This document shows positions 3,340 to 41,237 of a stretch of DNA of 41,808 nucleotides, piece after piece. Position 1 is the first letter of the stretch, and every line of letters begins with the position of its first letter. Below the pieces are notes generated by a model. It had not been told where the DNA came from and did no database searches. It saw only the letters and a list, made by a program, of their open reading frames with translations. The stretch lies in the IMG/VR virus record IMGVR_UViG_3300045135_001558, positions 1-41,808 of that record; one strand, given 5' to 3'. The position numbers and the translations under genes were made by a program. The stretch comes from a virus.

Positions 3340-3343
3340 GCTT

Positions 3344-3963: not shown

Positions 3964-3978
3964 CAAAAAACTTTTTTG
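3964..3978. repeat. A/T palindrome B4
   Basis: CAAAAAACTTTTTTG, placed directly before the first of the six 22-bp repeats and about 70 bases after terS. Confidence 0.75.
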
Positions 3979-3980
3979 AG

Positions 3981-4125: not shown

Positions 4126-4136
4126 TGTAGGGGAGT

Positions 4137-4211: not shown

Positions 4212-4214
4212 CGC

Positions 4215-4247
4215 AAAAAACCCCCCGAACCGGGAAGGTTCGAGGGG
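4215..4247 (-). terminator. Rho-independent terminator for the leftward gene at 4287-5000
   Basis: Read on the minus strand, CCCCTCGAACC (4247-4237), a 5-base loop and GGTTCGGGGGG (4231-4221) form an 11-bp stem with one G-U pair, followed by TTTTTT (4220-4215). This is a textbook intrinsic terminator placed 40 bases after the stop of the leftward gene. Confidence 0.85.
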
Positions 4248-4286
4248 CTGTTGATTGCGGGTCTTGAGATCAGGTCAGTTGGTTAG

Positions 4287-5000
4287 TTAGGAGATCGAGA
4301 CGCCAACGTCTGCGATCGTTCTCTCGCCCTTCTTTCTGTTGTCCTGCGCGCCGCCCTTGAAGGAGAACTTCCGGGGCTCCGGCAGGCTTGGGGCTCGCAG
4401 CAGGTGGACCAGCCCACCCGCTCCCGACAACAGCTCCTGCAGTCCGGCCTGATACTCGGAAACCTTCTGGAGCGCGTCCGTCGCGTCCATCTCAGTATTC
4501 AGGGCTTCGAGCGCGGAGATCTTGAGCTTCCGGATCTCGCGCGCCTTCTCGACGGCTTCCTTCGAAACCTTCGCCTCTTCGACGAGTCGGCTCTTCGCCT
4601 TCTCCATCGCCTGAACAATCTCCGAACCCTTCGGCCAAGATCCGGCACCTTCTGCCATCACAGCGCCCTTGTCGGCGTCGATCGTCACCTTTGCCAGTTC
4701 GGCATCGTATGCGTCTCGCACCTCAGGCTCATCCCGGTAGTTCAGCAGGGCCTCGAAGAGAGGCCTAGCGTTCCTGAACGTCTGGGCTGTTGTGAACTGT
4801 TGGCAGGGTACTCCGTACTCCTTCTCCGCCTTCATGCCCGACTGGACCACCAAGTAGAGCCCTTCGATGTCTTCAGGAGTGGGCTCCTTCGGGAGACTCA
4901 GCACGATCAGGGCCGGAGCCGCGATCTGCCGGAGTTCCTTCACTTCCCTGCGGATTGTCTTCTGGAGTTGCTTCAGCACTACTTCGTTGTTTTGTGACAT
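4287..5000 (-). CDS. Isolated coiled-coil protein of unknown function (237 aa)
   Basis: I chose the ATG at 5000 (MSQNNEVVLKQLQ), which follows AAAGGAAACGACCT; an in-frame ATG at 5066 lacks a binding site. The protein is largely helical: residues 8-30 form a charged helix, and residues about 125-200 a long coiled coil (VQAMEKAKSRLVEEAKVSKE onward). The C-terminus is basic (FKGGAQDNRKKGERT). It is a single leftward gene between terS and terL with its own terminator, next to the 22-bp repeats downstream and an A/T palindrome upstream. That setting suits an autonomous regulatory or replication gene, but no family is recognised. Confidence 0.75.
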   Translation of the reverse strand: MSQNNEVVLKQLQKTIRREVKELRQIAAPALIVLSLPKEPTPEDIEGLYLVVQSGMKAEKEYGVPCQQFTTAQTFRNARPLFEALLNYRDEPEVRDAYDAELAKVTIDADKGAVMAEGAGSWPKGSEIVQAMEKAKSRLVEEAKVSKEAVEKAREIRKLKISALEALNTEMDATDALQKVSEYQAGLQELLSGAGGLVHLLRAPSLPEPRKFSFKGGAQDNRKKGERTIADVGVSIS

Positions 5001-5150
5001 AGGTCGTTTCCTTTGGGCGCAGCTTGCGCCCGGATGGCGACCCGATCTCAAGACCCGTGTTTTCAATCAACGAATAAGGTATACAACAAGTGCAACAGGT
5101 ACGCAAGACCCCTAACCTATTGTGCTACAACGAGTTACAAGGCCGACAAT

Positions 5151-5169
5151 CTCAAAAAACTTTTTTGAG
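5151..5169. repeat. A/T palindrome B7 (19 bp)
   Basis: CTCAAAAAACTTTTTTGAG, a perfect odd-centred palindrome and the longest core match of the B family. It lies about 150 bases upstream of the leftward 237-residue gene. No T-run asymmetry or GC stem is present, so a plain terminator is unlikely. Confidence 0.75.
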
Positions 5170-5380
5170 CCTGTTTCGGATAAGCTGCGCATCTATGTGA
5201 TACAGGAGATATGCAGGCATGGTGTATAAATATGCAATCCCTGAACCCCAGTACCCCCCACCCACCCGAACGCGCGCGTGACGTAGCCGCCCAAATAAGT
5301 AAGCTTTTGCACGTTTGATCGCACTTATCAGGGCTCGACAGGGTTCATTTTTGGACACGAGGTATTTCTAAGTCTCACCC

Positions 5381-5438
5381 CGTTTTGTTTTTTCTTTTGC
5401 TTGCTTTTTTTCGCTGAAAAAAATTTCCCAACAAAACG
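5381..5438. promoter_or_regulatory. Nested stem-loop in the 5001-5587 non-coding region
   Basis: CGTTTTGTT (5381-5389) pairs with AACAAAACG (5430-5438), perfect over 9 bp, and inside it TTTTTTT (5405-5411) pairs with AAAAAAA (5417-5423) around CGCTG. The surrounding non-coding stretch (5001-5587) shows no convincing gene; its left part has a GC-rich patch and its right part is very AT-rich. The structure could be an unwinding element or a leader RNA. Confidence 0.55.
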
Positions 5439-5457
5439 AAAAAGTTAGGTGTCGTAC

Positions 5458-5577
5458 AGTATATACTTAGTAAATTTACTAAGTAAAATTTACTAAGTAT
5501 TTTTTTTGTTTTTACTAAGGTATTTTTAAAGGACTTTCTAAAAAGTAATTACTTAGTAACTTTACTTAGTATATACT
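5458..5577. repeat. TTTACTAAGT operator-like array between two AGTATATACT decamers
   Basis: AGTATATACT occurs at 5458-5467 and 5568-5577, exactly 110 bases apart. Between and overlapping them are six half-sites: ACTTAGTAA (5465), TTTACTAAGT (5475 and 5489), TTTACTAAGG (5511), ACTTAGTAA (5551) and ACTTAGTAT (5565). The first two form the perfect 20-bp palindrome ACTTAGTAAATTTACTAAGT (5465-5484). The array ends 10 bases before the HNH gene, so it likely controls the rightward packaging and head operon, or is an origin. Confidence 0.8.
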
Positions 5578-5587
5578 GGGGGGTCTG

Positions 5588-5899
5588 ATGAGCAGAAAGT
5601 TTGCCAAGCGTGTTCGTCTCTACGAGAAGCAGTTTGGAAAGAAGGCGGATTGGATTCGTTCCCTGCCCTGCTCTGCTTGTGGTGCTGGTGCGCCCAGTGA
5701 TCCTGCCCATATGAGGTCTAGAGGGGCTGGGGGTACAAGTGAGCATCTTGTGCCATTATGCAGGATGTGCCATATAGATCAGCACAACCGGGGCATTAAG
5801 ACGTTTTTTGCCGAGCATGGCCACTCAGACCCGCTTGAGCTTGCACAACACTACCACAAACTCTACGTCGAAGGGGGTGACAAGGATCTCGCCTTCTGA
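5588..5899 (+). CDS. HNH-type nuclease-like protein (103 aa)
   Basis: CxxC pairs at residues 28-31 and 58-61 frame His41, followed by His62 and His66 (HLVPLCRMCHIDQHN). This is the layout of a zinc-stabilised beta-beta-alpha metal nuclease. HNH proteins next to terminase genes are known to aid DNA packaging and end cleavage in several phages, so that role is inferred here. The ATG at 5588 follows GGGGGG with suitable spacing and is the first gene after the TTTACTAAGT array. Whether all catalytic residues are present cannot be judged without a structure alignment. Confidence 0.8.
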   Translation: MSRKFAKRVRLYEKQFGKKADWIRSLPCSACGAGAPSDPAHMRSRGAGGTSEHLVPLCRMCHIDQHNRGIKTFFAEHGHSDPLELAQHYHKLYVEGGDKDLAF

Positions 5900-5900
5900 G

Positions 5901-6248
5901 GTGGTAGAGGGCTCTCTAAAGCCCGTCATTATCTCAGAGGTGTTGGAGGTCATCTGGGTTGCCGTTGAGGCTTACATCGCCTCTACAGCGTCTCAGAGAG
6001 GGACTAGATCACCACTCCGGCATCTGTATGTGCCCCATGGTCCCGGTAAGGTGCGTTACACAGGCCCCACTGCTGAAGACATCCTTGAAGACTACTTGGG
6101 TGGACTGGGGTATGAGCGCGGCAGTCAGATGTGGTTTGATTTATCAAGGATTGTGATTGAGTATGCCGAGAAACGATGTGAACCCAATACAGACCCGCCT
6201 GAAGTGGTATTCTGGTGCAGACTTAACAAAATACCTTTCGAGCCATAG
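5901..6248 (+). CDS. Phage protein of unknown function (115 aa)
   Basis: The frame is open from 5808, but the protein-like part starts after the HNH stop. I suggest GTG at 5901 (AAGGAT lies upstream, spacing loose); GTG at 5877 or 5940 are alternatives. The sequence VAVEAYIASTASQRGTRSPL, then a GPTAEDILEDYLGGLGY segment, looks like a soluble alpha/beta protein. It sits between the HNH gene and terL, a common place for small packaging accessories. No family is recognised. Confidence 0.55.
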   Translation: MVEGSLKPVIISEVLEVIWVAVEAYIASTASQRGTRSPLRHLYVPHGPGKVRYTGPTAEDILEDYLGGLGYERGSQMWFDLSRIVIEYAEKRCEPNTDPPEVVFWCRLNKIPFEP

Positions 6249-6405
6249 TGCTGCAGATCTTTTAAAGAAGCATGCAATGTTGCTTATGAAGGCTCAATTG
6301 CTTTCATTAGAAGAGATGTACGAAGAGTCTGATAAATACAGGCATGCCGCTGACGACATCTTGAAATGGTTTGAGACTGGTAATGCAACAAAATCTTCTA
6401 GATAA
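6163..6405 (+). CDS. Small helical protein overlapping terL (about 80 aa)
   Basis: The start is uncertain: ATG 6163 has AAGGA about 11 bases upstream, and ATG 6277 has AAAGAAG close by and would give 43 residues. The C-terminal part is clearly protein-like and helical (SAADLLKKHAMLLMKAQLLS, then EEMYEESDKYRHAADDIL). It overlaps the end of the preceding gene in another frame and the first 23 bases of terL, which suggests translational coupling. Function unknown. Confidence 0.5.
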   Translation: MPRNDVNPIQTRLKWYSGADLTKYLSSHSAADLLKKHAMLLMKAQLLSLEEMYEESDKYRHAADDILKWFETGNATKSSR

Positions 6406-11888: not shown

Positions 11889-12128
11889 ATGCCGAAGAAA
11901 AAAAGTCAGCAAAGCCTAGACCGCTGGACAAAACAGAAATGGCGCACAAAAAGTGGCAAACCTAGCTCGGAAACAGGGGAGCGTTATTTGCCCGAAGGCG
12001 CGATTATGGCATTGTCTGCCGAAGAGTACAACAGGACTACCGCTAAAAAACGCGAAGACACAAAGAAGGGTAAGCAGTTTTCAAGACAACCCAGAAGTAT
12101 TGCTAAAAAAACTAAGAGGCACAGGTAA
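11889..12128 (+). CDS. Basic small phage protein (79 aa)
   Basis: It begins right after the previous stop. The segment SLDRWTKQKWRTKSGKPSSE, then TGERYLPEGAI, is a recurring signature of small marine-phage proteins and is Lys/Arg-rich throughout, ending in KKTKRHR. It is probably expressed with the portal genes. DNA binding is plausible from charge only. No binding site is obvious upstream. Confidence 0.75.
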   Translation: MPKKKSQQSLDRWTKQKWRTKSGKPSSETGERYLPEGAIMALSAEEYNRTTAKKREDTKKGKQFSRQPRSIAKKTKRHR

Positions 12129-12130: not shown

Positions 12131-12319
12131 ATGGCGAAGGGTGTAAACCACTACCTAAAAGATGGTACCGTGTGGCGCAAAGGCATGCACAAAATGCCGA
12201 ATGGAGAGCTGCACACCAACAAAACTCACACCAAGACGAGCCAAAGGTTGTTTCATTTTGCTGAGTTGAATGATAAAGCAAAAATTAAAGCTAGGTCTTC
12301 AAGTAGAAAAAAATCTTAG
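12131..12319 (+). CDS. Basic small phage protein with THKMPNG motif (62 aa)
   Basis: AGG followed by TAAAA precedes the ATG. The segment GTVWRKGMHKMPNGELHTNK, then THTKTSQRLFHF, is a conserved short signature recalled from marine phages near the portal gene. The C-terminus is Lys/Ser/Arg-rich. Its function is unknown. The His-rich central part might bind metal, but no Cys is present. Confidence 0.75.
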   Translation: MAKGVNHYLKDGTVWRKGMHKMPNGELHTNKTHTKTSQRLFHFAELNDKAKIKARSSSRKKS

Positions 12320-23271: not shown

Positions 23272-25629
23272 ATGCCTCTTTTAAAGATTGCCCCACGCCC
23301 CGGAATTTTTACTGACGGAACAAGGTATTCCGCAGAGGGGACATGGTTTGATTCAGATAAGATCAGGTTCCGCAAAGGATTTGTGGAAAAGATCGGTGGC
23401 TGGATCAATTATACCACAGGAAAAATATTTGGTATTGGGCGCAAAATCTTTAACTGGTCCACTGGAACCGGCGAAATTTATGTCTCGGTGGGCACCAACA
23501 ATAAGCTGTATGTTAATAATACTATTGAATATTATGACATTACACCTATAAGAAAAACATCCTCTGTTGGTAGCAGTAAGATTACTACGGTATCAGGAAG
23601 CGGCCTTCTTGTTATTGAGGATACCGGCCACGGCGCGATTCCGGGCGACTTCGTTACGTTTTCAAGTATCTCAGGGGCCGTAAACGGCATTCCTGCCGCA
23701 ACTCTAAATACCCAACACTATATTGCGTACTTGGGGGACGCCTCTGGTACCGACGAAGACAATAAATATGTAATCTTGGTAGACGACTTTGCGACCGGAT
23801 CGGGCGCAGCGGGGTCCGCGTTTACTGCAAAGTATGAAATTAATTCAGGCCCCGTTGATTCTTCTACAATTACTGCTTGGGGCACCGGCACATGGGGCTC
23901 CGGTCCTTGGGGTTCGTTTGTTACAAACCCTGAAGAAAAGCTTAGGCTTTGGGCCATGGACTCTTTCGGTGACGACCTTCTAGCGAATACTAGGGCAGGA
24001 AAGGTCTACTACTGGGATGAAAGTGCCGGTACATCAGAACGCGCAGTTCCCATATCGGATCTAACGCGAAGATCCGTAACACTTAGCACGGACCCGATTA
24101 CAACAACTTCAGGCTCTCCAACAATTGAAATATTTGATGATACTGGGCATGGGGCTGCAGTTGGTGATTCTGTAACAATAGCGGGGTCTTCCACTGTTGG
24201 TGGGCTAACCATTAACGGTACATATACTGTTGCATCTGTAACCTCTCTTTCTGTTTTTACGGTTACAGCAGGGTCCAACGCTTCGTCTAGCGCAACGGGC
24301 GGTGGCTCAAGTGTCACGGCAACGTACAAGGCCGGAGAGCACTACCCTCCAATAAAGACGCTTCAAGTAATGACTAGCGAAATTGCTCGTCATGTTATTT
24401 GTATTGGTTGTAACCCAATCGGGTCGTCTGATATTGATCTAAACTTGATCAGGTGGTCTTCATCTGAAGATGCTACTGATTGGCAACCACTCTCCACAAA
24501 TAGTGCGGGTGGACAAGAGTTGTCATTGGGCTCGACGGTTATTGGGGCCTTAAAGGCTAGGGGTGAGGTGTTAATCTGGACCGATGCCGGTCTTGTCAGC
24601 ATGAGGTACACCGGGGACCCATTTTACTTTGCGTTCAGCACCGTTGGTGTCGGTATGTCCATGATTTCGCCAAATGCTGCAGCAAACGCAAATGGCGTAA
24701 CATTCTTTATGGATCGTGGGGCGTTCTACCGATACACAGGAAGTGTCCAAAGACTTGTTTGTCCGGTACTCGGAACAGTTTTTGACGACTTCAACTTTAC
24801 GGAAGATTATAAGGTTGTTGCGGGCACAAACGTAGATAAGTCTGAGGTCTTCTGGTTTTACCCATCACTTTCCTCAACGGGCAAAAACGACAGGTATGTA
24901 GTCTATAACTACGATGAGGACATTTGGTACTTCGGGTCCCTTGCTCGTGGCGATTGGGATAACGCCTTCTTGATCAACAACCCACTAGCAACATCAATTA
25001 ATACATACGATTTGAGTGGAAACCCATTTGCCTCCTCAAGCGGCTCTCCAACAATTACGGTGACCCACACAAATCACAAGCTATCTACTGGTGATCAGGT
25101 CATCTTTCAGTCTTTTTCTCAGTTTGCAGGATTAGAAGAAAAAGCAATTAACAACATGCACGCAGTCACGGTTTTGACTGAAAACACATACACTGTTGAA
25201 ATGGGCAAGAATGCCAGTTCAACGGTATCTGCAGGTGGCGGATCTGGGATTGTTGTTTATCCTAATGTTGTATACAGGCAGGAATCCGGGTGGAACGATG
25301 TGGACACTGCGTTTACTTCGTATGTAGAAACCGGCGACATAGACTTAGGTGAGGGCGACCAGTTTATGTTTTTAAACAGAATTATACCTGATATTAAATT
25401 TTTGGACTCAGGTAGCAGTGATGAGGTGACGGTATCCATCAATGGACATGATTATCCCATGCAGTCACAGTCAGAAATTGCTTCGTCTGCATTCACCCCA
25501 AGCTCTACTCAGTCCAATATTCGCGGGCGCTCCAGACAGGCATCCGTAAAAGTTTCTAGCTCAGGAGCGGGCTACGGCTGGAGACTTGGGTACGTCAGGG
25601 TAGGCGTAAGAACGGATGGGCAAAGATGA
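23272..25629 (+). CDS. Tail hub/DNA-stabilisation protein with three inserted domains (785 aa)
   Basis: The core (LKIAPRPGIFTDGTRYSAEG, TWFDSDKIRFRKGFVEKIGG, later GEVLIWTDAGLVSMRYTGDP and VFWFYPSLSSTGKNDRYVVY) has the repeated aromatic beta-blade style of P22 gp10-like hubs. Three copies of a related insert appear: GHGAIPGDFVTFSS (about residue 119), GHGAAVGDSVTIAG (about 289) and NHKLSTGDQVIFQS (about 600), the last two each followed by a TVxMG/TVTAG and gly-ser block. They look like surface domains added to the propeller. The hub closes the neck and bears the fibres. Confidence 0.75.
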   Translation: MPLLKIAPRPGIFTDGTRYSAEGTWFDSDKIRFRKGFVEKIGGWINYTTGKIFGIGRKIFNWSTGTGEIYVSVGTNNKLYVNNTIEYYDITPIRKTSSVGSSKITTVSGSGLLVIEDTGHGAIPGDFVTFSSISGAVNGIPAATLNTQHYIAYLGDASGTDEDNKYVILVDDFATGSGAAGSAFTAKYEINSGPVDSSTITAWGTGTWGSGPWGSFVTNPEEKLRLWAMDSFGDDLLANTRAGKVYYWDESAGTSERAVPISDLTRRSVTLSTDPITTTSGSPTIEIFDDTGHGAAVGDSVTIAGSSTVGGLTINGTYTVASVTSLSVFTVTAGSNASSSATGGGSSVTATYKAGEHYPPIKTLQVMTSEIARHVICIGCNPIGSSDIDLNLIRWSSSEDATDWQPLSTNSAGGQELSLGSTVIGALKARGEVLIWTDAGLVSMRYTGDPFYFAFSTVGVGMSMISPNAAANANGVTFFMDRGAFYRYTGSVQRLVCPVLGTVFDDFNFTEDYKVVAGTNVDKSEVFWFYPSLSSTGKNDRYVVYNYDEDIWYFGSLARGDWDNAFLINNPLATSINTYDLSGNPFASSSGSPTITVTHTNHKLSTGDQVIFQSFSQFAGLEEKAINNMHAVTVLTENTYTVEMGKNASSTVSAGGGSGIVVYPNVVYRQESGWNDVDTAFTSYVETGDIDLGEGDQFMFLNRIIPDIKFLDSGSSDEVTVSINGHDYPMQSQSEIASSAFTPSSTQSNIRGRSRQASVKVSSSGAGYGWRLGYVRVGVRTDGQR

Positions 25630-27415: not shown

Positions 27416-30400
27416 ATGAATCGGTCCAACTTCCCGAAAGAAATGAGCTACGCCGAAGGTGGCATGTACGGCTACGCAGGTGGTGGCATGTACGGCACAC
27501 CTTATATGGCCGGAGGTGGCCTGTACACTATCCCACAGATGAATGGTGGCGGTATGTATGGTATGCCCGAGATGGCTGGCGGCGGCATGTACACCATGCC
27601 CTACATGGCTGGCGGTGGTATGTACGGCATGCCTTACATGGCGGGAGGGGGAATTACTACACTTCCGGGCTATGGATTTGGTGGCTTTTTGCGCGGCCTC
27701 AGTAAAGTTGCGGCTGTAGCTTCATTTTTTCCCGGCCCCCACCAAGCTGTCACGGTTCCATTGGCAGCTGCTTCTGGTGCAATTGGCGGGGCAATGGATG
27801 ACGGCGGTATCGAGGGTGCAATAAAAGGTGGGGCTGAAGGATTTATTGGGGCCAAGGCGGGAAAATCTGTAGCGGGTTCTGCAGGAAAGGGCGGTTTTGA
27901 TTTTGGTAAAGTTTTAGATGTCGCCACTGATCCTAGATTTCTTTCACTTGCAGGACCGCTTCTTGGTGAAGCTCTTAGTGGTGTAGGGTCCGGTGAAATA
28001 GGTGATGTGACGCTAGACATGAGCACCCCTCAAAGGGTCATGCCAAGCTATGCCCAAGATCGCATGGGCACATCGACAGGCCCCTCTAGGCAGGCTCAGG
28101 GTTACGCAACACTGCCTTCACGCCAAGAAGGCGGGATGATGCCTGACGGACGCCTATTTGATATGGCCCCAGAAGGATTTCCTTCTGTGCGACCCGAAAT
28201 GCCTGCGCCGGGACCTGCTCGTGCCCCTGTGATGGCTCCCCTTTACGACCTTCCCAGTCCGGACAGGCGGGTACCCGTACGGCGTTCCGACCTTCCCGAT
28301 CCGGACACCGTGTACCGAACGGATGGAGGAGGGCGTCGTGCTATGCGGCGTGATGTCCCAACCCTGCGACCCGATATGCCTGCGCCGGGGCCTGTTCGCG
28401 GTCCTGTAAGAGAGAGTCGCCCATCTCGTATCCCATCTCGGCCTAGCAGTCAAACGGCTCGGCGCGAAGAAGAAATGGGCGAACTAGAGTCACGGGTTGC
28501 GCCTCGCCCAGCCACAATCACTCCTCAAAGGATTCCCGAAGGCGAAGATCGTTATCGGTTTGGAGACCGCCCGACCGCAGAAGAAGAAAGGATGTCTCAA
28601 CGGTTCGGTACGCGGGACGAGTTTGGTGACCCCGATGAGTCTGAAAGAATAGAAAACATTCGGGCTATACAAAGAAATGTTCCCAAAGACGACATTACCA
28701 GTATTGATAATACTGTAGTTGAGTCTGTAAGCCCCTATGACCCAAGCCCTCCTGCGTTCGACTTTCGTCAGCAGCGGCCTCCGGCTCCAACTTCAACAAC
28801 CGTAGCTCCGGTAACAAGTACATTTACTCCGCAGCCCTATGAAATAACTGACATTCCTGATTGGTATCGGGCGGGCCTGATGCCTGAGACGGCTCTGACC
28901 GGCCCGCAGCCTGCTCCTGTTCAGGGCGACCCCTTTTCAGTATTTGAAGGTGTAGAGGCTCAACCGACTCAGCCAATACCTGAGCCGGATATGTCATTCC
29001 TGCAAGGCCCTCAACAAGGCCCTCAACGGGTCATGCCGAGGTACGCTCAGTCCATTACGCCTCCCCCTGCGCCAATGGCTCCGCGGCCACGCCCAGTTGC
29101 GCCCCCGAGTGCTGTGCCTCAACCAAGGCCGATTCGACCACCCGCAATTACAGATCGACCCCGCCCAAGGCCAATCCAGCCACCGGGAGGCCCAGATCAA
29201 CCTCGTCCAAGACCGATTAGGCCACAACCAATTCGAGAAAAGCCTAAGCCAATTAGGACGCAACCGATTGTAGAGCCCCCTAGAAAGAAAAAAAGAACTC
29301 CAAAAAAGAAAAAAGATTCTGTAATTCGTACTCCGGGTACACGGGACCCTGTTGTACAGCCGCCTAGAAAGAAGAAGAAAAAGCGTGACGCGGTGATCAG
29401 GACTCCGGGTACGAGAGATCCTGTCGCACAACCGCCCAAAAAGCGGGCACCCAGAATCTCGACCCCGGATCGTATTGCACGACCACCCAAGAAAAAGAAA
29501 AAGAAACGCGATGCGGTAATCAGAACTCCGGGAACTAGAGATCCCGTTGTACAGCCGCCTAGAAAGCGAGCACCCAAGAAGCGAACACCTCCTAAGCGAG
29601 CACCCAAAAAGCGAACACCTCCTAAGCGAGAACCCCGAATTGGGACTCCGGGCACCAGAGATCGTGAAGCTGATCGGCCTCGTTCACCCAGAGTTTCAAC
29701 CCCGGATCGTGTTGCACGACCGCCCAAGAAGGAGCCGCCTAAGGCTTCAAGGCCGGATCGTCCCGCACAACCGCCTAAAAAACGAGCGCCCGCCAAGCGA
29801 GCGCCTCGAATCGGAACTCCCGGAACCCGAGATCGTCCTGCACGACCTCCTAAAGAGCGTTCACCGTACATCCACCGGGGGAGATCCGACAGAGTTTCGA
29901 GACCGGATCGTCCTGCACGACCACCCAAAAAGAAAAAGCGTATTACCACACCGAGGCCAACGCGCCGTACTCCGCCCAAGCGTACTCCGCCAAAGCGCAC
30001 ACCACCAAGGCGTACTCCACCAAGGCGTACTCCGCCAAGGCGTACTCCGCCCAAGCCTCGTAGCCCTTCACCTACTCCTCCTCCACGGAAGCGTACACCA
30101 CCCAAACGCACACCACCCAAACGCACACCACCAAGGCGTACACCACCCAAACGCACACCACCCAAACGCACACCACCAAGGCGTACTCCACCTAAACGTA
30201 CTCCACCAACACCCCGTACCCCGCCAAAGCGTACCCCGCCGAAGCCAAGACGGACTGACATAGGTAGTTTGCCTAAGAGGCGTACTACTACGCCTAAGAA
30301 GCGTACTGCTACGCCCAAGAAGCGTACTACTACGCCCAAGAAGCGTACTGCTACGCCGAAGAAGCGTACTGCTACGCCGAAGAAGCGTACTACTGCGCCG

Positions 30401-31054
30401 AAGCGCCGTACCGCGCCCAAGCCGAAGCGGCGTACTCCACCAAGACCAAGGAGGCGTACCCCACCAAGGCCAAGGCCGCGTACCCGATCAAGGCGTTCTC
30501 GTTCGGGAATCGGTCTGGCAGAGGGAGGAATTGTAGATATTTCTTATGATGGATTTATTGAACCGTTTGAGGACGGTACCTTGGAAAGCAGCGGCGCAGT
30601 AGATGATCGGGTTGCCTTGATAAAGCCTGAAATTTCAGATGTTTCCCCAGAGAACCTAGAGTTTCTTGAGCAGATCAAGGCTGCCTTGAGAAACCCTGAA
30701 AGTGCCGTATCTCAAAAAATTATTGATGCAGCAAGGCGTCTTTTTGGCGAAGACTTCTTACGTGACATGGTTATGGAAATGTCTACCTCGGGTATGGACC
30801 CAGAGGTAGAAGAGGGCGACGACATGGATCGCCTTGTAGAAATGCAGTTTCGCCAGAACCTAGCAGAAGGTGGCCCCGTAAAGATTGGGGCTGCAGTCGC
30901 GCCCAAAGAGTATGTGCTCACCGCACGACAAGTGAAGAATATCGGCGGAGGGAGTGCCGACGAGGGCGCACGGCGACTCAAGGAATTTGCACGGACTGTA
31001 GATGTTGTGGGCAGTAAAACAGATAGCCCTCTAAATATTAATATCGGTAAATAA
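27416..31054 (+). CDS. Giant low-complexity basic protein, internal virion candidate (1212 aa)
   Basis: Residues 22-76 are five tandem 11-residue repeats (GGGMYGMPYMA type). A Gly/Ala-rich segment (residues about 100-190) with hydrophobic stretches follows, then a Pro/Arg-rich disordered part. Residues about 622-1031 are Lys/Arg/Pro-rich: repeated TPGTRDPVVQPP modules, about 18 RTPPKR-type units, six RTATPKK-type units and a final RSRRSRSG. The C-terminus is acidic and globular (ENLEFLEQIKAALRNPESAV) and carries a GGIVDI motif. TPKK-type repeats bind AT-rich DNA grooves in histone tails, so DNA binding in the head is inferred. No homologue is recalled for the whole. Confidence 0.72.
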   Translation: MNRSNFPKEMSYAEGGMYGYAGGGMYGTPYMAGGGLYTIPQMNGGGMYGMPEMAGGGMYTMPYMAGGGMYGMPYMAGGGITTLPGYGFGGFLRGLSKVAAVASFFPGPHQAVTVPLAAASGAIGGAMDDGGIEGAIKGGAEGFIGAKAGKSVAGSAGKGGFDFGKVLDVATDPRFLSLAGPLLGEALSGVGSGEIGDVTLDMSTPQRVMPSYAQDRMGTSTGPSRQAQGYATLPSRQEGGMMPDGRLFDMAPEGFPSVRPEMPAPGPARAPVMAPLYDLPSPDRRVPVRRSDLPDPDTVYRTDGGGRRAMRRDVPTLRPDMPAPGPVRGPVRESRPSRIPSRPSSQTARREEEMGELESRVAPRPATITPQRIPEGEDRYRFGDRPTAEEERMSQRFGTRDEFGDPDESERIENIRAIQRNVPKDDITSIDNTVVESVSPYDPSPPAFDFRQQRPPAPTSTTVAPVTSTFTPQPYEITDIPDWYRAGLMPETALTGPQPAPVQGDPFSVFEGVEAQPTQPIPEPDMSFLQGPQQGPQRVMPRYAQSITPPPAPMAPRPRPVAPPSAVPQPRPIRPPAITDRPRPRPIQPPGGPDQPRPRPIRPQPIREKPKPIRTQPIVEPPRKKKRTPKKKKDSVIRTPGTRDPVVQPPRKKKKKRDAVIRTPGTRDPVAQPPKKRAPRISTPDRIARPPKKKKKKRDAVIRTPGTRDPVVQPPRKRAPKKRTPPKRAPKKRTPPKREPRIGTPGTRDREADRPRSPRVSTPDRVARPPKKEPPKASRPDRPAQPPKKRAPAKRAPRIGTPGTRDRPARPPKERSPYIHRGRSDRVSRPDRPARPPKKKKRITTPRPTRRTPPKRTPPKRTPPRRTPPRRTPPRRTPPKPRSPSPTPPPRKRTPPKRTPPKRTPPRRTPPKRTPPKRTPPRRTPPKRTPPTPRTPPKRTPPKPRRTDIGSLPKRRTTTPKKRTATPKKRTTTPKKRTATPKKRTATPKKRTTAPKRRTAPKPKRRTPPRPRRRTPPRPRPRTRSRRSRSGIGLAEGGIVDISYDGFIEPFEDGTLESSGAVDDRVALIKPEISDVSPENLEFLEQIKAALRNPESAVSQKIIDAARRLFGEDFLRDMVMEMSTSGMDPEVEEGDDMDRLVEMQFRQNLAEGGPVKIGAAVAPKEYVLTARQVKNIGGGSADEGARRLKEFARTVDVVGSKTDSPLNINIGK
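27479..27643 (+). repeat. Five tandem 33-bp repeats in the coding region
   Basis: Five exact-length copies encode GGGMYGTPYMA, GGGLYTIPQMN, GGGMYGMPEMA, GGGMYTMPYMA and GGGMYGMPYMA. Bases vary more than residues, so the protein sequence is under selection. Confidence 0.85.
29966..30248 (+). repeat. 18-bp coding minisatellite (RTPPKR units)
   Basis: Tandem and near-tandem units encode RTPPKR, RTPPRR or close variants, interrupted once by a Ser/Pro-rich spacer (PRSPSPTPPPRK). Neighbouring DNA copies differ at synonymous sites, although several adjacent ones are identical, suggesting recent slippage or recombination. Confidence 0.8.
30281..30406 (+). repeat. Six 21-bp coding repeats (RTATPKK units)
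   Basis: Six consecutive units encode RTTTPKK, RTATPKK, RTTTPKK, RTATPKK, RTATPKK and RTTAPKR. Each carries a TPKK-like motif known from histone H1 tails. Confidence 0.85.
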
Positions 31055-31056
31055 TT

Positions 31057-32685
31057 ATGGACCCGGAACAACAAGCAATTGGTGATGCGGCAGTTGCTGA
31101 AATAGTTAGGTCTGTTGTTCAGCAGGCTGACCGTCGCCCACGCACACTGGATGTAGATGTTGAGCCGCCGCCCAAGAGGGGGCTTCGGGCACTCATGGCC
31201 TACCTCAGTACAGTAATGGACCCAAGCTACATGAGTCCGGGCGACAGGCAGGTTCTGGAAAACCAACAACTTCGCAGGGCTCGGGATGAGTTTGCTCGTC
31301 GCCAAGCCATGAAAAGGCCCTTGCCGCCTCTTTACACCTCCGAAACAGCAGAGATGTTGACCCCGGAGGAGATTGAAGAGTTTGGTATTGAAGTTGGGAT
31401 GAATGACGGTGGCATGATTCCGTCCTATCAGCAGGGTGGGGCTACCTTCCCTCTCGACACGGCACAATTTGAAAGACAAGAAACTTTTCTTTCTCCCGAG
31501 GTTGCCCCGTTTTATGCCCAGTTGACGGATCGCATTTACAATGAAGCAATGCGTCCGTACCAGCCATATGGCGGTCAGCGTCTTGCAGGCTTTACTGCTC
31601 CAGAGCAGGCGGCTATGCGCGGCGTGTACTCATATGGGATGGGTGGAGGCCCTGCTGAGATGGGCATGGCCCAAAGATCCCTGATGGGTGCGATGTCAGG
31701 GTATGGTGGGATCGGATACGAAGGTACTGCCGGTGCACTCGACCCGTATATGTCGAGCTACATGCAAGCAACCATTGATCCTGCCATTCGGGATATCCGT
31801 CGTGAGTCTCAGCGACAGATGCAGTCCCTTGGTAGTCAGGCAGGAAGAGCGGGAGCCTTTGGTGGCTACCGACATGGGCTTGGCGAACAGGCACTTCGGT
31901 TGGGCACAATGGAGCAGATTGGCGATGTCACCGCTCGTGGCAGGCAGCAGGCGTTCCAGAATGCACAACAGGCTTTCGCTCGTGACAGAGCGGCCCGTAT
32001 GGCCGCAGCACAGGGCCTCTATGGAGTTGGTGGTGGGCTTGCAAGCCTTGGCCAACAGCAACAGCGCATGACCTTTGATCGCTTTGGTCAGATGCAAAAT
32101 GTTGGTCAACAGGCCCGCAACCTACAACAACAGTCTCTGGATATTGGGTACCAAGATTTCCAGAACAGACTGAATCAGGAGCGGGGTAACATTGGGTTTG
32201 CCCTTAATGCCTTGGGTCAGCTTCCGTACCGTAGCACTACGATGACCACCGGAGGCGCGGGTGCTTCTGGTCCGTCTGCGGGACAGAGGTATATGGGCGC
32301 GCTGTTGTCTGGGGCTGGAGTTTATAACCAGTTCCGTAACCAACAGCAGCCCGCCGGTACAGATTTTAAAAAAACTCCTACGACCTACCCCGCACCTAGC
32401 GGCTCTATTCCAAAGGGCACGTCGGCAGGGCGTCCACTACCAAACGCACTTAACACTGCCAATCCGGGCTTCCTGAACCAAAACCCAGCCACTAGATCTC
32501 CTCTTTCAATGGTCCCTAGCCAAGATACCGGCGTCTTTAACCCTCAAGCGGCCATGCTTTACCAAGGGCCATCTTCAACGGGGCCGGTAGGGTTCTCCGA
32601 CAACCCACAAATTCGCGCTAGGCAGAATGCACAAATGAAAGCCCAATCGGGGGGCATGCCATCCGGTCAGTATAAGGGGGTCTAA
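31057..32685 (+). CDS. Internal virion/ejection protein candidate (542 aa)
   Basis: An N-terminal helical region (LRRARDEFARRQAMKRPLPP) and a GGMIPSYQQGG motif lead to a long Gln/Ala/Gly-rich helical part with repeated GxxG turns (MAQRSLMGAMSGYGGIGYEG, GSQAGRAGAFGGYRHGLGEQ, NVGQQARNLQQQSLDIGYQD). This composition resembles P22-type ejection proteins, which are Ala/Gln-rich and leave the head with DNA. The C-terminus is Pro/Ser-rich and disordered. No enzymatic motif is seen. Confidence 0.65.
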   Translation: MDPEQQAIGDAAVAEIVRSVVQQADRRPRTLDVDVEPPPKRGLRALMAYLSTVMDPSYMSPGDRQVLENQQLRRARDEFARRQAMKRPLPPLYTSETAEMLTPEEIEEFGIEVGMNDGGMIPSYQQGGATFPLDTAQFERQETFLSPEVAPFYAQLTDRIYNEAMRPYQPYGGQRLAGFTAPEQAAMRGVYSYGMGGGPAEMGMAQRSLMGAMSGYGGIGYEGTAGALDPYMSSYMQATIDPAIRDIRRESQRQMQSLGSQAGRAGAFGGYRHGLGEQALRLGTMEQIGDVTARGRQQAFQNAQQAFARDRAARMAAAQGLYGVGGGLASLGQQQQRMTFDRFGQMQNVGQQARNLQQQSLDIGYQDFQNRLNQERGNIGFALNALGQLPYRSTTMTTGGAGASGPSAGQRYMGALLSGAGVYNQFRNQQQPAGTDFKKTPTTYPAPSGSIPKGTSAGRPLPNALNTANPGFLNQNPATRSPLSMVPSQDTGVFNPQAAMLYQGPSSTGPVGFSDNPQIRARQNAQMKAQSGGMPSGQYKGV

Positions 32686-32690
32686 TTAAT

Positions 32691-34586
32691 ATGCCAAATC
32701 TTATTCAGTTACAGAGAGAAATAGAGGGCCTCTCCGACAGAAGGCTTATTGACGAGCTTTCGTCTCCAACAATTTATGCTGGCCACGAGGCTACACTTGC
32801 CACTGAACTAAAAAAGCGTCAGAAGTATCGCGAAGACTATGAGGCCCGCATGGCTCAGGTTCCGCAAGACACAATTAAAGACCAGTTAATTAATAAAGCC
32901 TTGCAAGGTATTGGCTCTATTCCGCAGACGGCACCAACACAGCCGATGCCTGCGGCTATGGCCATGGCACAACAGCCTATGCAGGGCGGCATGCCTATGC
33001 AGGGTGGGATGCAACTCCCCATGGGAGCTATGGCTCAGGGTGGGATTGTTGGGTATCAGAATGGTGGCCTTACAGACCCTGAAGATGAGGAAGAGGGTTT
33101 TAAGCCCGGACCCATTTTGCGTGGTGCGTATGATGTTTATGAATTCGGAAGGGAGAATCCGGCAATCGGCATCCCTGCTGCCGCTCTTGCAACAAGGTTT
33201 GGTCTCCGGAGAGCTAGGAAAGCTTACGGCGCGGGTCAGGGAATCTTGGCTCAGGCTCCGAGGGTGGCTCAGACACTCAGAGATGCAGTAAAAGGTGGAA
33301 GTGGTTTTATAGCAGGTCCACGCGGTGTTGCCCCTCGAACCCGCGGTAGAGCTATCGGTGAACTTGCAGACATGGTTGAAAGCGGTCTTGGGAAACTTGG
33401 ACTTTGGACCCTTCTCCCCGGACTCCTTTACGGTGTTGACCAAGGATTTGCTGACTCCGACGAGGATGAAGAAGTCGGAGATGTCGAAGGTGGAATGATT
33501 TTGCCAGACAGTATATTTGGTTCATTCGGCGGCAGCGGTGCTGATATGCCTAGCGACATGCCCGTGGGTGTGTCCCCAGACATTCAAAATATGATCTTGC
33601 AGCGAATTCAACAGCAAGGTCAACCAACCGCACAAAGCAGGGCTCTCAGAGAATTTCTTGAGCAGAGGGCTCAAGAAATCGGGGGTCGCTCTTCTCGGTT
33701 TGAAGACATTACCAGCCAAATGACAGACCTTGAGATGCAACAGGCTCAACTTGCGGCTGACTCTATGAGGGCTATGCGCGAGCTATACCAAACTGACCCT
33801 GAAGCAAGGCGGCGCGATGAACAGACGCGACTTCTCCTTGGCTTGGGTGACGTTGTTGCACAGGGGCGTTTTCAGGAAGGTGGTATTGCAGGAGGTGTTT
33901 CTAGGCTTGGTACAGGGCTTATGGACATGCGGCGAGAAGAGGCGGATCGGGAGCGGGAGTTTGCCATTCGGATGGCAGAGCTTGATACCGGAGCCCAAGG
34001 CGCTCTCCTAGAGGGCCGTCGTCGCATTCTTGAAATTGAAAACCAACGCATCCGGGGCGAGATCAGTGATCAAGACGCGGCTGATGCGGTAAGCCTTGAG
34101 ATCCTGAAGATGGAGGCAGATCAAGCCGTTCAGGGACAAGACGTTCAAAATCTTATTGCCCTGCTTGGGTTGCAAATACAAGCGTCTGCTGCACAGGCGT
34201 CAGCCCAACGGCAACTACGCGGAATACCCGACGAGCTGGCTGCATACTTGCTCGATAGCACCAACGCTGAAGGTACTATTGGCGGCATTCCCGACCTTAA
34301 CACATCAGATGGTCGTGATGCCCTAGAAGACAAAGGGCTTGAGAGAATCCTCGGGGAGATCAATAGAGTTCGGGATACAATACGGGTGCTTTCTGGAGGA
34401 AACCAATCAGCCCTTAATGACGCGATGAGGCTTTTTGGACGGGAGCTTGCAAGAAGGGGATACACTACAGGAACTGGGCTTAGGGAAGAAGGATTGGACC
34501 GCGGAAACCCAGATATTGATTTAAATGGAAACGCAGACGGTGGCTCTATAGACCTGTCTTTTAATAAGCTTGTCCCACAACCCTGA
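32691..34586 (+). CDS. Internal virion protein candidate with GGIVGYQNGG motif (631 aa)
   Basis: A helical N-terminus (LIQLQREIEGLSDRRLIDEL) precedes a Met/Gln/Gly-rich stretch and the motif MAQGGIVGYQNGG (about residue 115). A hydrophobic segment (IGIPAAALATRFGLRRARKA) and another (LGLWTLLPGLLYGVDQGF) may insert in membranes. The second half is a long charged coiled coil (residues about 320-500). It is probably ejected or internal; GGIV-type motifs also occur in both flanking genes to the left. The function of that motif is unknown. Confidence 0.65.
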   Translation: MPNLIQLQREIEGLSDRRLIDELSSPTIYAGHEATLATELKKRQKYREDYEARMAQVPQDTIKDQLINKALQGIGSIPQTAPTQPMPAAMAMAQQPMQGGMPMQGGMQLPMGAMAQGGIVGYQNGGLTDPEDEEEGFKPGPILRGAYDVYEFGRENPAIGIPAAALATRFGLRRARKAYGAGQGILAQAPRVAQTLRDAVKGGSGFIAGPRGVAPRTRGRAIGELADMVESGLGKLGLWTLLPGLLYGVDQGFADSDEDEEVGDVEGGMILPDSIFGSFGGSGADMPSDMPVGVSPDIQNMILQRIQQQGQPTAQSRALREFLEQRAQEIGGRSSRFEDITSQMTDLEMQQAQLAADSMRAMRELYQTDPEARRRDEQTRLLLGLGDVVAQGRFQEGGIAGGVSRLGTGLMDMRREEADREREFAIRMAELDTGAQGALLEGRRRILEIENQRIRGEISDQDAADAVSLEILKMEADQAVQGQDVQNLIALLGLQIQASAAQASAQRQLRGIPDELAAYLLDSTNAEGTIGGIPDLNTSDGRDALEDKGLERILGEINRVRDTIRVLSGGNQSALNDAMRLFGRELARRGYTTGTGLREEGLDRGNPDIDLNGNADGGSIDLSFNKLVPQP

Positions 34587-34591: not shown

Positions 34592-37500
34592 ATGTCTGTA
34601 CAGGAGAGATACAGAGAGCTTCGTCAACAAGGCTTGTCACACGAGGAGGCTATTGATCGAATCAACAGCCTTTTTGCAGGGTCTCGTAGTAGGTCGGAAG
34701 ACGGAGCGCTTTCGTCTATTGGCGAGTTCTCACAAGGTCTAGCCTTGGGTGGAACAAGGGCTCTGACAAGTCTAGGTGAAGGCTTTGGACAGATACTAGA
34801 CATTGTGGGTGCCGATGTAATCGGAGAGGGGCTTAAAGATGTCTCGCGAGACGTAGAATCTGAGGCTGAAGAATTTTTTACACCTGAAGGCACCGCTGGT
34901 GCAGCCGGTGAGCTTGTTGGAAGAATCGGGGGTGAGGCCGCAACGACTCTAGGAACGTTGGGGTTGAGCAGGGCCGCTTCACTACGGTATGCCCCACAAG
35001 CCCTTAAAACCCTTCAGGACATGACAAGGGGTTCTAGGGTTCGCTCCGCGATTGCTGCATCGGTGCTTGAGTCCCCCCTCTCTTTAGCTAGAGCTAGTTC
35101 TTATGCTGAAAGACAGGGCACTGACTTTGGTAGAGAACTGGGCATTGAGCTTCTTGGATCTGCTTTTGGTGGCGCGTTTTCTAGCACCGCTAAAGCTGCT
35201 CGACCGCAAGTGTCTGACAGTCTTTTTGGTTCTGTCAGATTGGGCACCTATGAAGAAGCTGGAACACGGCCCGGAAGGCTATTAAACCCCAGAGAGAGGG
35301 CTGCTGCACAGATATTTGATCAGTATCTTCCTATAAGAAAGTTTGCTAGGGCGGCAACTCCCGGAGACATAAGCGCCGAACGAAGAATTTCTGGACTTAT
35401 TAGTCAGATGCTTGGTTCGACACAAGCCGGATACGAGTACCTGAAGAGGGGTGGGCCTGCTCTTAAGCTTTCTCAGGCTTTTGCCCCGTGGCTTCGAGCA
35501 AATCGAAATAACTTGCAGGCCATTAACAAAGCTGCATTGATCCGTCGCGAAATGGTGCTTCGCGCAAACGGTCTTGGCTCAAGAATGGCTAACATTGGCA
35601 ACAAAGAACTTCAGGAAATGCACCGAACAGTTTTAAACAACCCTGAACTCAAAAAAGCCACCGACGAACTACAAGAATTTTTTAGGGAAAATTTAAGACT
35701 CCAGAGAGACGAGGGCATCGTCCGCTTGGATGAGTACGATGCAATTGTAAAATCGTCTATTGCTGACGGGGTTGACGACTACTACACACCAATGATCCGG
35801 GCACGGTCCAGAGAAGACGTAACCTCCCCGGCATTCGTGAGAAGGACTGGAAGTGCATTTCAGACAAGAAGCACTGTTCGGCCAATAGATCAAGACGTTG
35901 TGTCGAGGGACCCCTTAGTTTCTCCGGTAGACATTTTGCCCATAGAAACCATGAGGGTGTTCGATAATGTCGCCACAAAGAGGGTGGGTGATGGGATTGC
36001 AACTCTGATTGAGCAGACTCCGAACAAAGAACTAGACGGAATTATTCGTTTGGCCACAAGAGATGATCTGTCTGAAGCTTCTGGGAGGATCTGGAGGCAC
36101 AAGTCATACAATAAGGAGTTTGAAAATCTTGTAGACGAAGATGGCTTCATAAACTATGTGGTCGAAGACCCCGATTTGTTTGAGGCGCTGACCCGACAGT
36201 CTCCCGAGGCTGCGGGGATAATGACCGACATTTTAAAAAAGGTGGCGAATCTCAAAAGGCAAAGCATTACACTCTTGCCGGACTTTGCGGTCCTGTCTGT
36301 TCTTCGCGACTTGCCGCTTTATGCGGTACAAAGGGCTGTTCAGAGGGGGCCAGAGGCTGTGGGCGAGTCTCTTGTCGGGGGCACGACTGGTTTTGCCGTA
36401 GGACTTTCAGGAGAGGGCACTGAAGAAGAAAAGCTAACGCGGGCGCTGCAATTGGGGGCCGCAGGACTAGGCGTTGGGGTATTAGCCAGACCCACCGTAG
36501 AGGTTGCCCGTGCCGGAAAAGCTATTGCTGGCGCACGCTTGGCCAATAGAGACATAAATACTCTAGCAAATACTTCTCGCACATCTTCTGAGATTCTTTC
36601 TGGTTTAGGGAGAAGCCTTGGTATTGATCCGGGCGAATGGAATGAGTTTGTCAGGCAGGGTGGGCTAACTGTAGGTCTTTCATACGGCAAAAAAGACGCA
36701 GAGAAACTTGTTGCTGGCCTTATGAACAAGGACGAAAGGAACACTCTCCGCTCTACCTTGGGTGGCGTCAAAGAAGCCCTAGAAACCATCGGAATGGTGG
36801 CTGAGAATGCCCCCAGACTAGCGATGTACAGGGCTATGCGTTCTGGTGCAGCGTCGAAACTCCCCGGATCTAGTGTTCAGGAAGCAATCTGGTCTGCTCA
36901 GGATGTTACGTTGCCCTTTGCACTTAGGGGATCAAATAAAACCGTTCAGACCATTGCCCAGATAACGCCATTTTTTAATGCAACACTTCAGGGGTACTCA
37001 AAACTGTTCAGGCTCTTTAGGGGGGACCCTTCTGAGCCTGCACTGAAGGGTGCCTCACAGAGCATGTTGGCTATGGGCACGGCAATGACTGCACCAACCG
37101 TTGCCCTGTGGTCTGTCAATAAAGACAATCCAGAATATTGGGACCGTCCTCTTTGGGAGAGAAATCTTTTCTGGCTTATACCCAAGCCGGAAGGTGGCTT
37201 TTTCCGCGTACCCAAGCCGTTTGAGCTTGGCTACGCCTTTGCCTCTCTGCCCGAAAGGGCGCTCGACGCTTGGGCGCAAAGCGGAAAGATCGAATCCGCA
37301 GTTCCTCCGGGCACTGACGCTGCCAGTGAGATTACAAAGAGCCTTGTTGATTTTGCAAAAAATCCACTAACAGGGACGCTTCCTATACCCGCAGCCCTTC
37401 AGCCTTTAATGGAGCAGGCCGTCAACAGGGACCTGTTCAGGTGGAAGCCAATCGTTCCAGAGTATCTTGGTGTACGTCCTTCGGCTCGTCAGACAACGCC

Positions 37501-38053
37501 AACAACTCCAGTTTTGGCAAACAAGATTGGTGAACTGACAAACATTTCACCTCTCCGGGTAGAAGCATTGATACAGAGCCTTGGCGGTACTGTGGGTCGT
37601 AGGGCTATGCAGCTTGTGGACATTGCAGGTACAGCCACCGACTCACCAACACCGGCATCAAAGCTCACCCCCGCAGAGCGGCTTGCTCAGGTTACGGGTG
37701 CAACAAGATTTAATACACAACAATACGACATTGGTAATATTGAGTACTCTGCGTGGAACATTCTCAATAATGCTAAAACTGTTGAAGATGAGTACAATCG
37801 CATGGTGCGTAGCGGAGTAGCCGCTCAAGCCCTCGAAAACTATAAAGAACAGTACGAGGATGAGCTAAACATTGCCAAAGCCAGCAAGGGCCTGCTTCGC
37901 GAAATGAGAAATATTAGACAGAGAAGAAATTCTCTTTTGCGCAACCAGAACATCCCAGAAAGAAGGCTCCAGACACAACTCAATCTGGCCTCGACACAGG
38001 GCAGAAAGGCCGGAGAACGAGCCTTCAAACTTATCGACAGGGTTGCCCGATGA
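34592..38053 (+). CDS. Large ejection/polyvalent protein with LPD38-like region (1153 aa)
   Basis: The start is an amphipathic helix (QERYRELRQQGLSHEEAIDR). The middle (residues about 560-1000) shows landmarks of the large polyvalent protein-associated LPD38 family: LLPDFAVLSVLRDLPLYAVQ, VAENAPRLAMYRAMRSGA, IAQITPFFNATLQGYSKLFR and YWDRPLWERNLFWLIPKPEG. Several amphipathic helices and Ala/Gly-rich segments suggest membrane or pore roles, as expected for proteins injected with phage DNA. LPD38 function is unknown to me beyond its occurrence in phage polyvalent proteins. Binding site weak. Confidence 0.72.
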   Translation: MSVQERYRELRQQGLSHEEAIDRINSLFAGSRSRSEDGALSSIGEFSQGLALGGTRALTSLGEGFGQILDIVGADVIGEGLKDVSRDVESEAEEFFTPEGTAGAAGELVGRIGGEAATTLGTLGLSRAASLRYAPQALKTLQDMTRGSRVRSAIAASVLESPLSLARASSYAERQGTDFGRELGIELLGSAFGGAFSSTAKAARPQVSDSLFGSVRLGTYEEAGTRPGRLLNPRERAAAQIFDQYLPIRKFARAATPGDISAERRISGLISQMLGSTQAGYEYLKRGGPALKLSQAFAPWLRANRNNLQAINKAALIRREMVLRANGLGSRMANIGNKELQEMHRTVLNNPELKKATDELQEFFRENLRLQRDEGIVRLDEYDAIVKSSIADGVDDYYTPMIRARSREDVTSPAFVRRTGSAFQTRSTVRPIDQDVVSRDPLVSPVDILPIETMRVFDNVATKRVGDGIATLIEQTPNKELDGIIRLATRDDLSEASGRIWRHKSYNKEFENLVDEDGFINYVVEDPDLFEALTRQSPEAAGIMTDILKKVANLKRQSITLLPDFAVLSVLRDLPLYAVQRAVQRGPEAVGESLVGGTTGFAVGLSGEGTEEEKLTRALQLGAAGLGVGVLARPTVEVARAGKAIAGARLANRDINTLANTSRTSSEILSGLGRSLGIDPGEWNEFVRQGGLTVGLSYGKKDAEKLVAGLMNKDERNTLRSTLGGVKEALETIGMVAENAPRLAMYRAMRSGAASKLPGSSVQEAIWSAQDVTLPFALRGSNKTVQTIAQITPFFNATLQGYSKLFRLFRGDPSEPALKGASQSMLAMGTAMTAPTVALWSVNKDNPEYWDRPLWERNLFWLIPKPEGGFFRVPKPFELGYAFASLPERALDAWAQSGKIESAVPPGTDAASEITKSLVDFAKNPLTGTLPIPAALQPLMEQAVNRDLFRWKPIVPEYLGVRPSARQTTPTTPVLANKIGELTNISPLRVEALIQSLGGTVGRRAMQLVDIAGTATDSPTPASKLTPAERLAQVTGATRFNTQQYDIGNIEYSAWNILNNAKTVEDEYNRMVRSGVAAQALENYKEQYEDELNIAKASKGLLREMRNIRQRRNSLLRNQNIPERRLQTQLNLASTQGRKAGERAFKLIDRVAR

Positions 38054-40207: not shown

Positions 40208-40405
40208 ATGTTTAAAGGACCAAGAGATTGTCCCCGATGCGCTTCAGAGGTTCATGGTTCCCGGTTTTGTTGGATGTGTGGCTGGGACATGGAGGACTTA
40301 TATTCAGAGTGTGACAGATGTGGCAGTGACGCTGGCGATGATGGTTACTGCGTGATCTGCGGTGCTCTTGTTTTTTCAAAAAAAAATAATGAAGAAAAAC
40401 CATGA
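40208..40405 (+). CDS. Double zinc-ribbon protein (65 aa)
   Basis: Eight cysteines in four CxxC pairs (8/11, 21/24, 35/38, 48/51) form two tandem zinc ribbons (CPRCASEVHGSRFCWMCG and CDRCGSDAGDDGYCVICG). It starts directly after the upstream stop and ends inside the following gene's start. Such proteins usually bind nucleic acid or act as protein adaptors. A link with the phosphoesterase gene that overlaps it is suggested by coupling only. Confidence 0.78.
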   Translation: MFKGPRDCPRCASEVHGSRFCWMCGWDMEDLYSECDRCGSDAGDDGYCVICGALVFSKKNNEEKP

Positions 40406-41237
40406 ACATCTGGTAGTATTCTTAGGGGACACGCACTGCGGCTCCACAGTGGGGCTTTGTCCAGAGGAGGGCTTAGAGCTAGACGACGGGGGCTGGTACC
40501 AACCAAACAAGTCTCAGCTCTGGCTTTGGAGTAACTGGATTGATGCGTGGAAGCGCGTTAAAAAAATGCGTGGCCGAAAAAAGAAACTACACATCGTAGT
40601 TAACGGCGATGCCATCGACGGTGATCACCATCGGACATCCCAGATCGCGAGCAGACTCACGGGCATTCACATCACATGCTTCCTTGAGTCCATGCGTATC
40701 CCCCTCGCACTGAAGCCTGACTCCATCCACATCATTCGCGGTACTGCCGCACATGTGGGAGAGTCCGGTAACACAGAAGAGGGCATAGCTCGCGCCCTGA
40801 AGTCTCAGGGGTGGCCTGTTGTGGGCGACCCCGACACAGGGCAGATGTCCTCATACTGGCGCAAGATGACCATCGGAGGCGTGGACTTTGATGTGAAACA
40901 CCACGGTCGCATGGGGCGCAGAGCCCACACGAAGGGTCCGTACATGCGATGGTATGCTCAGGACATCTGTTTTAACTACATGATGGATGGTCTTGCTCCA
41001 CCCGACCTCGCCATCCGCAGCCACTTTCATCAGTTCGCTGACAGTGGCAAGATCCATAAAATAAAAACTCGGGCCGTAGCTTTGCCCGCATGGCAGTTAG
41101 CAACAGAGTATGTGCATCGGGTGGCCGAAAGCATGGCTGACGTTGGTCTTGTATGCGTTCCCGTTACGGATGGCGAGTACTCAATAGAACCAATCTTATT
41201 CTCACCAGAACGTCCCACACAAATGGAAATTGAATGA
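40389..41237 (+). CDS. Calcineurin-like metallophosphoesterase (282 aa)
   Basis: The metal ligands follow the family order: GDTHCG (13-18), NGDAIDGDHH (72-81), an RGTAAHVG (117-124) in place of the usual GNHD/E, HHG (171-173) and SHFH (211-214). The variant third motif lacks the canonical Asn, so activity may differ or use another ligand. It could act on nucleic acid ends, cyclic nucleotides or host signals. I chose ATG 40389, which overlaps the zinc-ribbon gene by 17 bases; the earlier frame start at 40362 lies inside that gene. Confidence 0.8.
   Translation: MKKNHEHLVVFLGDTHCGSTVGLCPEEGLELDDGGWYQPNKSQLWLWSNWIDAWKRVKKMRGRKKKLHIVVNGDAIDGDHHRTSQIASRLTGIHITCFLESMRIPLALKPDSIHIIRGTAAHVGESGNTEEGIARALKSQGWPVVGDPDTGQMSSYWRKMTIGGVDFDVKHHGRMGRRAHTKGPYMRWYAQDICFNYMMDGLAPPDLAIRSHFHQFADSGKIHKIKTRAVALPAWQLATEYVHRVAESMADVGLVCVPVTDGEYSIEPILFSPERPTQMEIE

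Follow-up and report, generated by a model that had tools for sequence, protein, structure and literature searches.

We know of no histone-like tail in the ejection proteins of the short-tailed phages T7 (gp14-gp15-gp16) and P22 (gp7-gp20-gp16), and to our knowledge no protamine-like anchoring function has been described for tailed phages. Some of these ejection proteins bind DNA, among them gp15 and gp16-C of T7, the latter without sequence specificity, and few virion genes vary as much as those for ejection proteins (PMC8954989). The SPKK proteins, which share the lysine-, proline- and threonine-rich composition of linker histone H1 tails, include the sperm H2B of sea urchins and hydrozoans (PMC9903204). 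Terminase relatives of the phage analysed here with named genomes are the Pelagibacter phages HTVC027P and HTVC023P and phage DSL-LC04. Two of their proteins, HTVC027P gp82 (339 aa) and DSL-LC04 WJZ48115.1 (759 aa, 'tail tape measure protein'), are encoded directly before a phrog_4287 DNA ejection protein.

The window, a stretch of 41,808 nucleotides from a marine short-tailed phage (IMG/VR record IMGVR_UViG_3300045135_001558), has the genes of a large terminase, an SU10-type portal, a GroES-like protein, a phrog_371 major head protein and tail fibres. The gene studied here, P0001, is an open frame that starts with ATG and encodes 1212 aa (Table 1). It follows the tail nozzle gene and several small genes, and like those of gp82 and WJZ48115.1 it stands directly before the phrog_4287 gene, which is followed by the genes of a 631-aa protein and an LPD38 protein; the block thus contains recognised DNA ejection and transfer proteins. 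We are about evenly divided between belief and doubt in the combined reading that P0001 heads a podoviral cassette of ejection (internal virion) proteins and that one of its variable linkers has been turned into a polybasic arm gripping the entering genome end. Its place at the head of the block makes a location in the virion, or ejection from it, plausible, and we infer from synteny that the protein is present in the virion. It likely shares the job and the cassette logic of the T7 and P22 ejection proteins but has no sequence match to them; searches of PHROGs and Pfam with P0001 itself linked it to no named ejection protein, and the connection to T7 and P22 is one of synteny and a single PHROG. 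The xGG-hydrophobic motif is present in 10 copies in P0001 (0.22 expected) and in 3 and 5 copies in the next two genes; no further gene tested has more than one (two have a single copy each). Copies of this motif (AEGGM, AGGGMY, QNGGL) cluster in 27416-34586 and are also found in the counterpart genes of three other contigs (L012, L015 and L008).

Table 1. Coordinates of P0001, its domains, its neighbours and the basic proteins of cousin phages (window positions unless a contig is named)
Feature	Position	Strand	Basis or remark
P0001, whole gene	27416..31054	+	putative first ejection-cassette gene; flanking genes shared with six orthologues
YxAGGGMYxxP-type repeats (xGG-hydrophobic motif), aa 1-80	27416..27655	+	motif count
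Gly-rich, moderately hydrophobic segment GFLRGLSKVAAVASFFPGPHQAVTVPLAAASGAIGGAM, aa 84-160	27665..27895	+	kept in most orthologues; analogous hydrophobic segments in syntenic proteins
Conserved middle (RYRFGDRxT..DEFGD.DES..DIPDWYRAGLM..GDPFSVF), aa 377-510	28544..28945	+	invariant alignment columns
Proline-rich linker with PRPRPI units, aa 511-606	28946..29233	+	in orthologues rich in P, Q and M, with almost no net charge
Polybasic repeat segment (TPGTRDP, RPPKKK, RTPPKR, RTATPKK), aa 607-1030, net +140	29234..30505	+	without counterpart in all orthologues
Conserved acidic C-terminal domain with tape-measure-type end motif EYVLTARQVKNIGGGSADEGA, aa 1031-1212	30506..31051	+	alignments, hhalign
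Nozzle/stabilisation-type virion protein, 785 aa, phrog_3287	23272..25629	+	upstream of P0001; PHROG/Pfam
DNA ejection protein, 542 aa, phrog_4287	31057..32685	+	E=6.8e-20
Third cassette protein, 631 aa, xGG motifs	32691..34586	+	synteny, motif count
LPD38 protein, 1153 aa, fourth cassette gene	34592..38053	+	position taken in DSL-LC04 by a 'DNA transfer protein'
Portal-GroES variable basic protein	L148:2113-3804, L156:2240-3796, L135:2170-3813, L150:2748-3815, L019 end		

Elsewhere in the window, the approximately 6.3 kb upstream of the terminase (1-6370) contain no clear long gene, and the ORFs tried there gave no PHROG or Pfam match; two stretches of this region, 3481-3854 and 5624-5809, show 69-71% DNA identity to the record of the orthologue-bearing contig L003. 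At 40362-41237 a 291-aa protein is encoded which looks like a calcineurin-type phosphoesterase; its relatives begin with VVFLGDTHCGS, and it has a weak match to the phage exonuclease family phrog_284 (E=0.004).

The earlier note on this DNA had described a 1212-residue frame with about 400 residues of RTPPKR, RTATPKK and TPGTRDP modules, Gly/Met/Tyr repeats at the N-terminus and an acidic end with a GG-motif, and all of these are present, the acidic end having a net charge of -15. Searches of Pfam and PHROG with the whole protein, of Rfam, of 50,697 phage records by tblastn and of genome contigs with the C-terminal alignment returned zero matches, and the profile search with the C-terminal domain alone that the earlier note had proposed gave no PHROG match. 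The AlphaFold model of this domain is poor (pLDDT 57), and Foldseek found no significant match to it. The proteins gp82 and WJZ48115.1 carry the same end motif as P0001 (hhalign; for gp82, a match of 31 columns with P=1.4e-5), and this stretch in both of them matches the tape measure PHROGs phrog_5448, 23013 and 6090, to which P0001 has no direct match. The GG end of P0001 is therefore assigned to a tape-measure-type C-terminal motif, and the EFV.TA..V..G.GS end motif of tape measure profiles is present in it. Besides the end motif (EFVFTADAV..GGGS..GA), all three proteins have a Gly-rich hydrophobic segment and xGG motifs, and WJZ48115.1, like P0001, has internal repeats. Unlike P0001, gp82 and WJZ48115.1 lack a basic segment, their net charge reaching at most +10 per 100 aa. 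A role of P0001 as a long helical tape-measure ruler was considered and rejected, given the podovirus-type nozzle and ejection block, the SU10-type portal and the Gly/Pro-rich composition of the protein.

The polybasic segment comprises 424 residues, of which 26% are P, 23% R, 15% K and 13% T, with 161 K+R against 21 D+E, and we infer that it is disordered. Unit counts were compared with those in 2000 composition-preserving shuffles of the segment. RTPP[KR]R is found 15 times (shuffle mean 0.08, maximum 2), TPP[KR] 19 times (mean 1.4, maximum 6), TPKK 6 times (mean 0.4, maximum 4) and TPGTRD 5 times (mean 0, maximum 0). The earlier note had argued from the S/TPKK motifs of histone H1 tails, which bind the AT-rich minor groove. 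This argument covers only the six TPKK units; the dominant unit, TPPKR, falls outside S/TP[KR][KR], the [ST]P[KR][KR] class as a whole is unexceptional (6 copies; shuffle mean 2.6, maximum 9) and the GC content of the phage is 50%. The arm thus resembles histone tails more in charge and composition than in exact motif. In common with H1 tails and SPKK proteins the arm is a K/P/T-rich, presumably disordered polycation; unlike them it is arginine-rich and belongs to a phage protein, in which no Pfam match to a winged-helix or histone-fold domain was found. A literature search for a phage protein with a comparable tail, which covered few subscription journals, found none.

Orthologues of P0001 are encoded on six viral contigs (L002/L007, L003, L004, L005, L006 and L026) in the same gene order. 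They share the N-terminus, the middle (DIPDWYRAGLM) and the C-terminal domain, the last being 61-66% identical to that of P0001 in alignments. A frame disrupted in close relatives, which the earlier note had regarded as evidence against its proposal, was not observed: the frame is intact in the relatives, and it is the basic segment that is missing from all six, with both ends and the middle kept. The second linker, 524 residues with a net charge of +146 in P0001, measures 11-136 residues in the relatives, with a net charge of -2 to +12; at the junction where the basic segment of P0001 lies, L004 contains a short patch of basic residues. The orthologue at L026:1421-4585 contains about ten QRLAELEARQQSSLDPF units in the first linker and several FQPDYSPIxxExxxDIGRLExEIGSL units, both coiled-coil-like. 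Among 40 distinct syntenic proteins, collected as end-motif matches in loci of the same module (one entry, L047 with 361 aa, may be a false positive), the peak net charge per 100 aa is +41 in P0001 and +16 in the next, and no basic member came to light in a separate survey starting from the nozzle gene. In the records of nine relatives, most of them fragments, no stand-alone version of the basic segment could be identified with confidence. Two weak DSL-LC04 matches to the segment contain internal stop codons and were judged to be due to chance. By these comparisons the basic arm is a lineage-specific gain in the linker, and since the orthologues do without it, the tail is not essential to the function of the family.

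A degenerate RTPP-repeat DNA pattern had 8 matches in viral contigs, mostly in short or unrelated frames. One of them, the contig L019, found through its KTPPKRTPPKRTPPKR tail, encodes a major head protein 61% identical to that of the window and a phrog_28737 protein 30% identical, and by these identities it is a member of the same phage group. Its TPPKR tail belongs to a gene upstream of GroES, not to the leader of the ejection cassette. The relatives of L019, cousin phages whose major head proteins are 59-63% identical to that of the window phage, encode a variable protein behind the portal that frequently bears H1-like tracts, and its net charge per 100 aa reaches +32 in L148, +31 in L156, +25 in L135, +23 in L142 and +20 in L150. 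These proteins contain H1/AlgP-like basic repeats (KPVARRKPTPPK, KKTVAKKKPVPPK and KPKPKPKPKPKPKTP), several share a conserved C-terminus FGGYGQPMPMAPLAPYAGL, and four that were searched against PHROGs gave zero matches. Like P0001, they combine an H1-like K/R/P-rich low-complexity tract with a place in a virion gene module; unlike it, they are products of another gene, and they resemble P0001 nowhere but in the basic tract. In G007 (the source of L140), a cousin genome with both regions, the cassette leader reaches +3 and the portal-adjacent protein +23, and the window has only small genes at the portal-adjacent position. This one genome pair, too little for proof, is suggestive of a complementary use of the basic tract, in the cassette leader or in the portal-adjacent gene, and the parallel gain of H1-like tracts in the cousins suggests a recurrent need. 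Two of the small proteins between portal and GroES in the window are very basic, one of 79 aa (11889-12128, phrog_14910) and one of 62 aa (12131-12319, no match).

In the proposed mechanism, the second linker would have expanded to its present length in the P0001 lineage and become a disordered polycation, which most likely would bind nucleic acid electrostatically and with no sequence preference. The arm would then hold or guide the leading genome end at the portal or in the ejection channel, assisting the usual DNA-binding ejection proteins rather than condensing the whole genome. From its composition the arm probably binds nucleic acid; against a reading specific to DNA it counts that a polycation binds LPS, RNA and other polyanions equally well. 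The amount of charge can be set against the size of the genome. The record of L003 is circularly shifted relative to the window (L003 484 = window 23272, L003 37161 = window 3481), and assuming equal gene order and no large indels the genome is estimated at about 56 kb, or about 113,000 phosphates. With 10-20 copies of P0001, a number assumed after known ejection proteins, an arm of +140 would neutralise about 1-3% of these phosphates, which makes condensation of the whole genome unlikely and leaves room for a local grip on the DNA end. Of the virion-DNA role put forward in the earlier note, the location and the suitability of the composition for binding nucleic acid remain plausible; a general condensing function is not supported, in view of this estimate, the tail-less orthologues and the lack of a convincing separate copy.

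The nearest rival to DNA binding is that the arm binds the cell envelope, through acidic lipids or the phosphates of lipid A/LPS, and eases the passage of the ejected protein across the outer membrane. Polycations bind LPS well, and the Gly-rich hydrophobic segment of P0001 could be membrane-active; for the positive charge of the ejection protein gp73 of phage DEV, such a role is proposed by the authors of its structure (PMC10925440). The similar tracts in the portal-adjacent gene of the cousins may point instead to the capsid side. We regard envelope binding as possible but unlikely.

The other main rival, also unlikely in our estimate, is that the arm serves as a flexible spacer, grown by low-complexity expansion in a linker that accepts any hydrophilic filling, and has no specific partner. 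The linkers of the family do differ in every orthologue, from the QRLAELEARQQSSLDPF units of L026 to the P/Q/M-rich linkers of L003-L006, and DSL-LC04 has GMDLSSAQG repeats; tandem growth is visible in the P0001 repeats (TRF). However, in the 14 tandem TPP[KR] units all five third-codon-position columns vary, as against one of the ten first- and second-position columns (Fisher p=0.002), and this single variable column is a K/R exchange except for one unit with Thr. Most synonymous sites differ between the three longest TPGTRDP units, with the peptide unchanged. Their pN/pS of 0.13 is biased downward by the choice of units by motif; for this reason the contiguous arrays are used instead, in which pN/pS is 0.12-0.15 for TPPKR and 0.75, from few changes, for the TATPKK array, which is younger. 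The four-fold-site composition of the repeat region resembles that of the neighbouring genes and the rest of the phage. Variation at third positions with first and second positions nearly fixed indicates that the arm is kept as a basic protein rather than being a product of recent slippage; on this codon pattern, the repeat is selected as protein. A charge of +41 per 100 aa would moreover rarely be reached by chance filling.

Two further explanations are weaker. The arm could be delivered into the host and target the nucleoid, RNA or ribosomes, for example by silencing host genes, which we consider very improbable. The PRPRPI/PRPIRP units are reminiscent of proline-rich antimicrobial peptides, and cassette proteins of this kind in T7 and P22 enter the cell (PMC8954989); against this, Pfam and PHROGs revealed no enzymatic or known effector domain in P0001, and a polycation would first bind the phage's own DNA. 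An assembly or frame artefact is scarcely credible, since the frame is open across all its codons with conserved ends on both sides and the repeat units differ at synonymous sites, so that they are not simple duplicated copies, even though the repeat lies on a single metagenomic contig and assemblers can miscount copies.

The reading of P0001 as an ejection-cassette protein with a DNA-gripping arm could be extended to the group, whose podoviruses would then repeatedly evolve a histone-tail-like polybasic arm in a virion protein, be it the cassette leader as here or the portal-adjacent protein as in the cousins, as a portable DNA anchor for the packaged or entering genome end; this generalisation is doubtful. 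The occurrence of tailed and tail-less close orthologues in one conserved cassette provides a natural comparison with and without the +140 arm, by which the handling of the DNA end by ejection proteins becomes directly testable, and it means that the linkers of ejection-cassette proteins can be wholly refitted.
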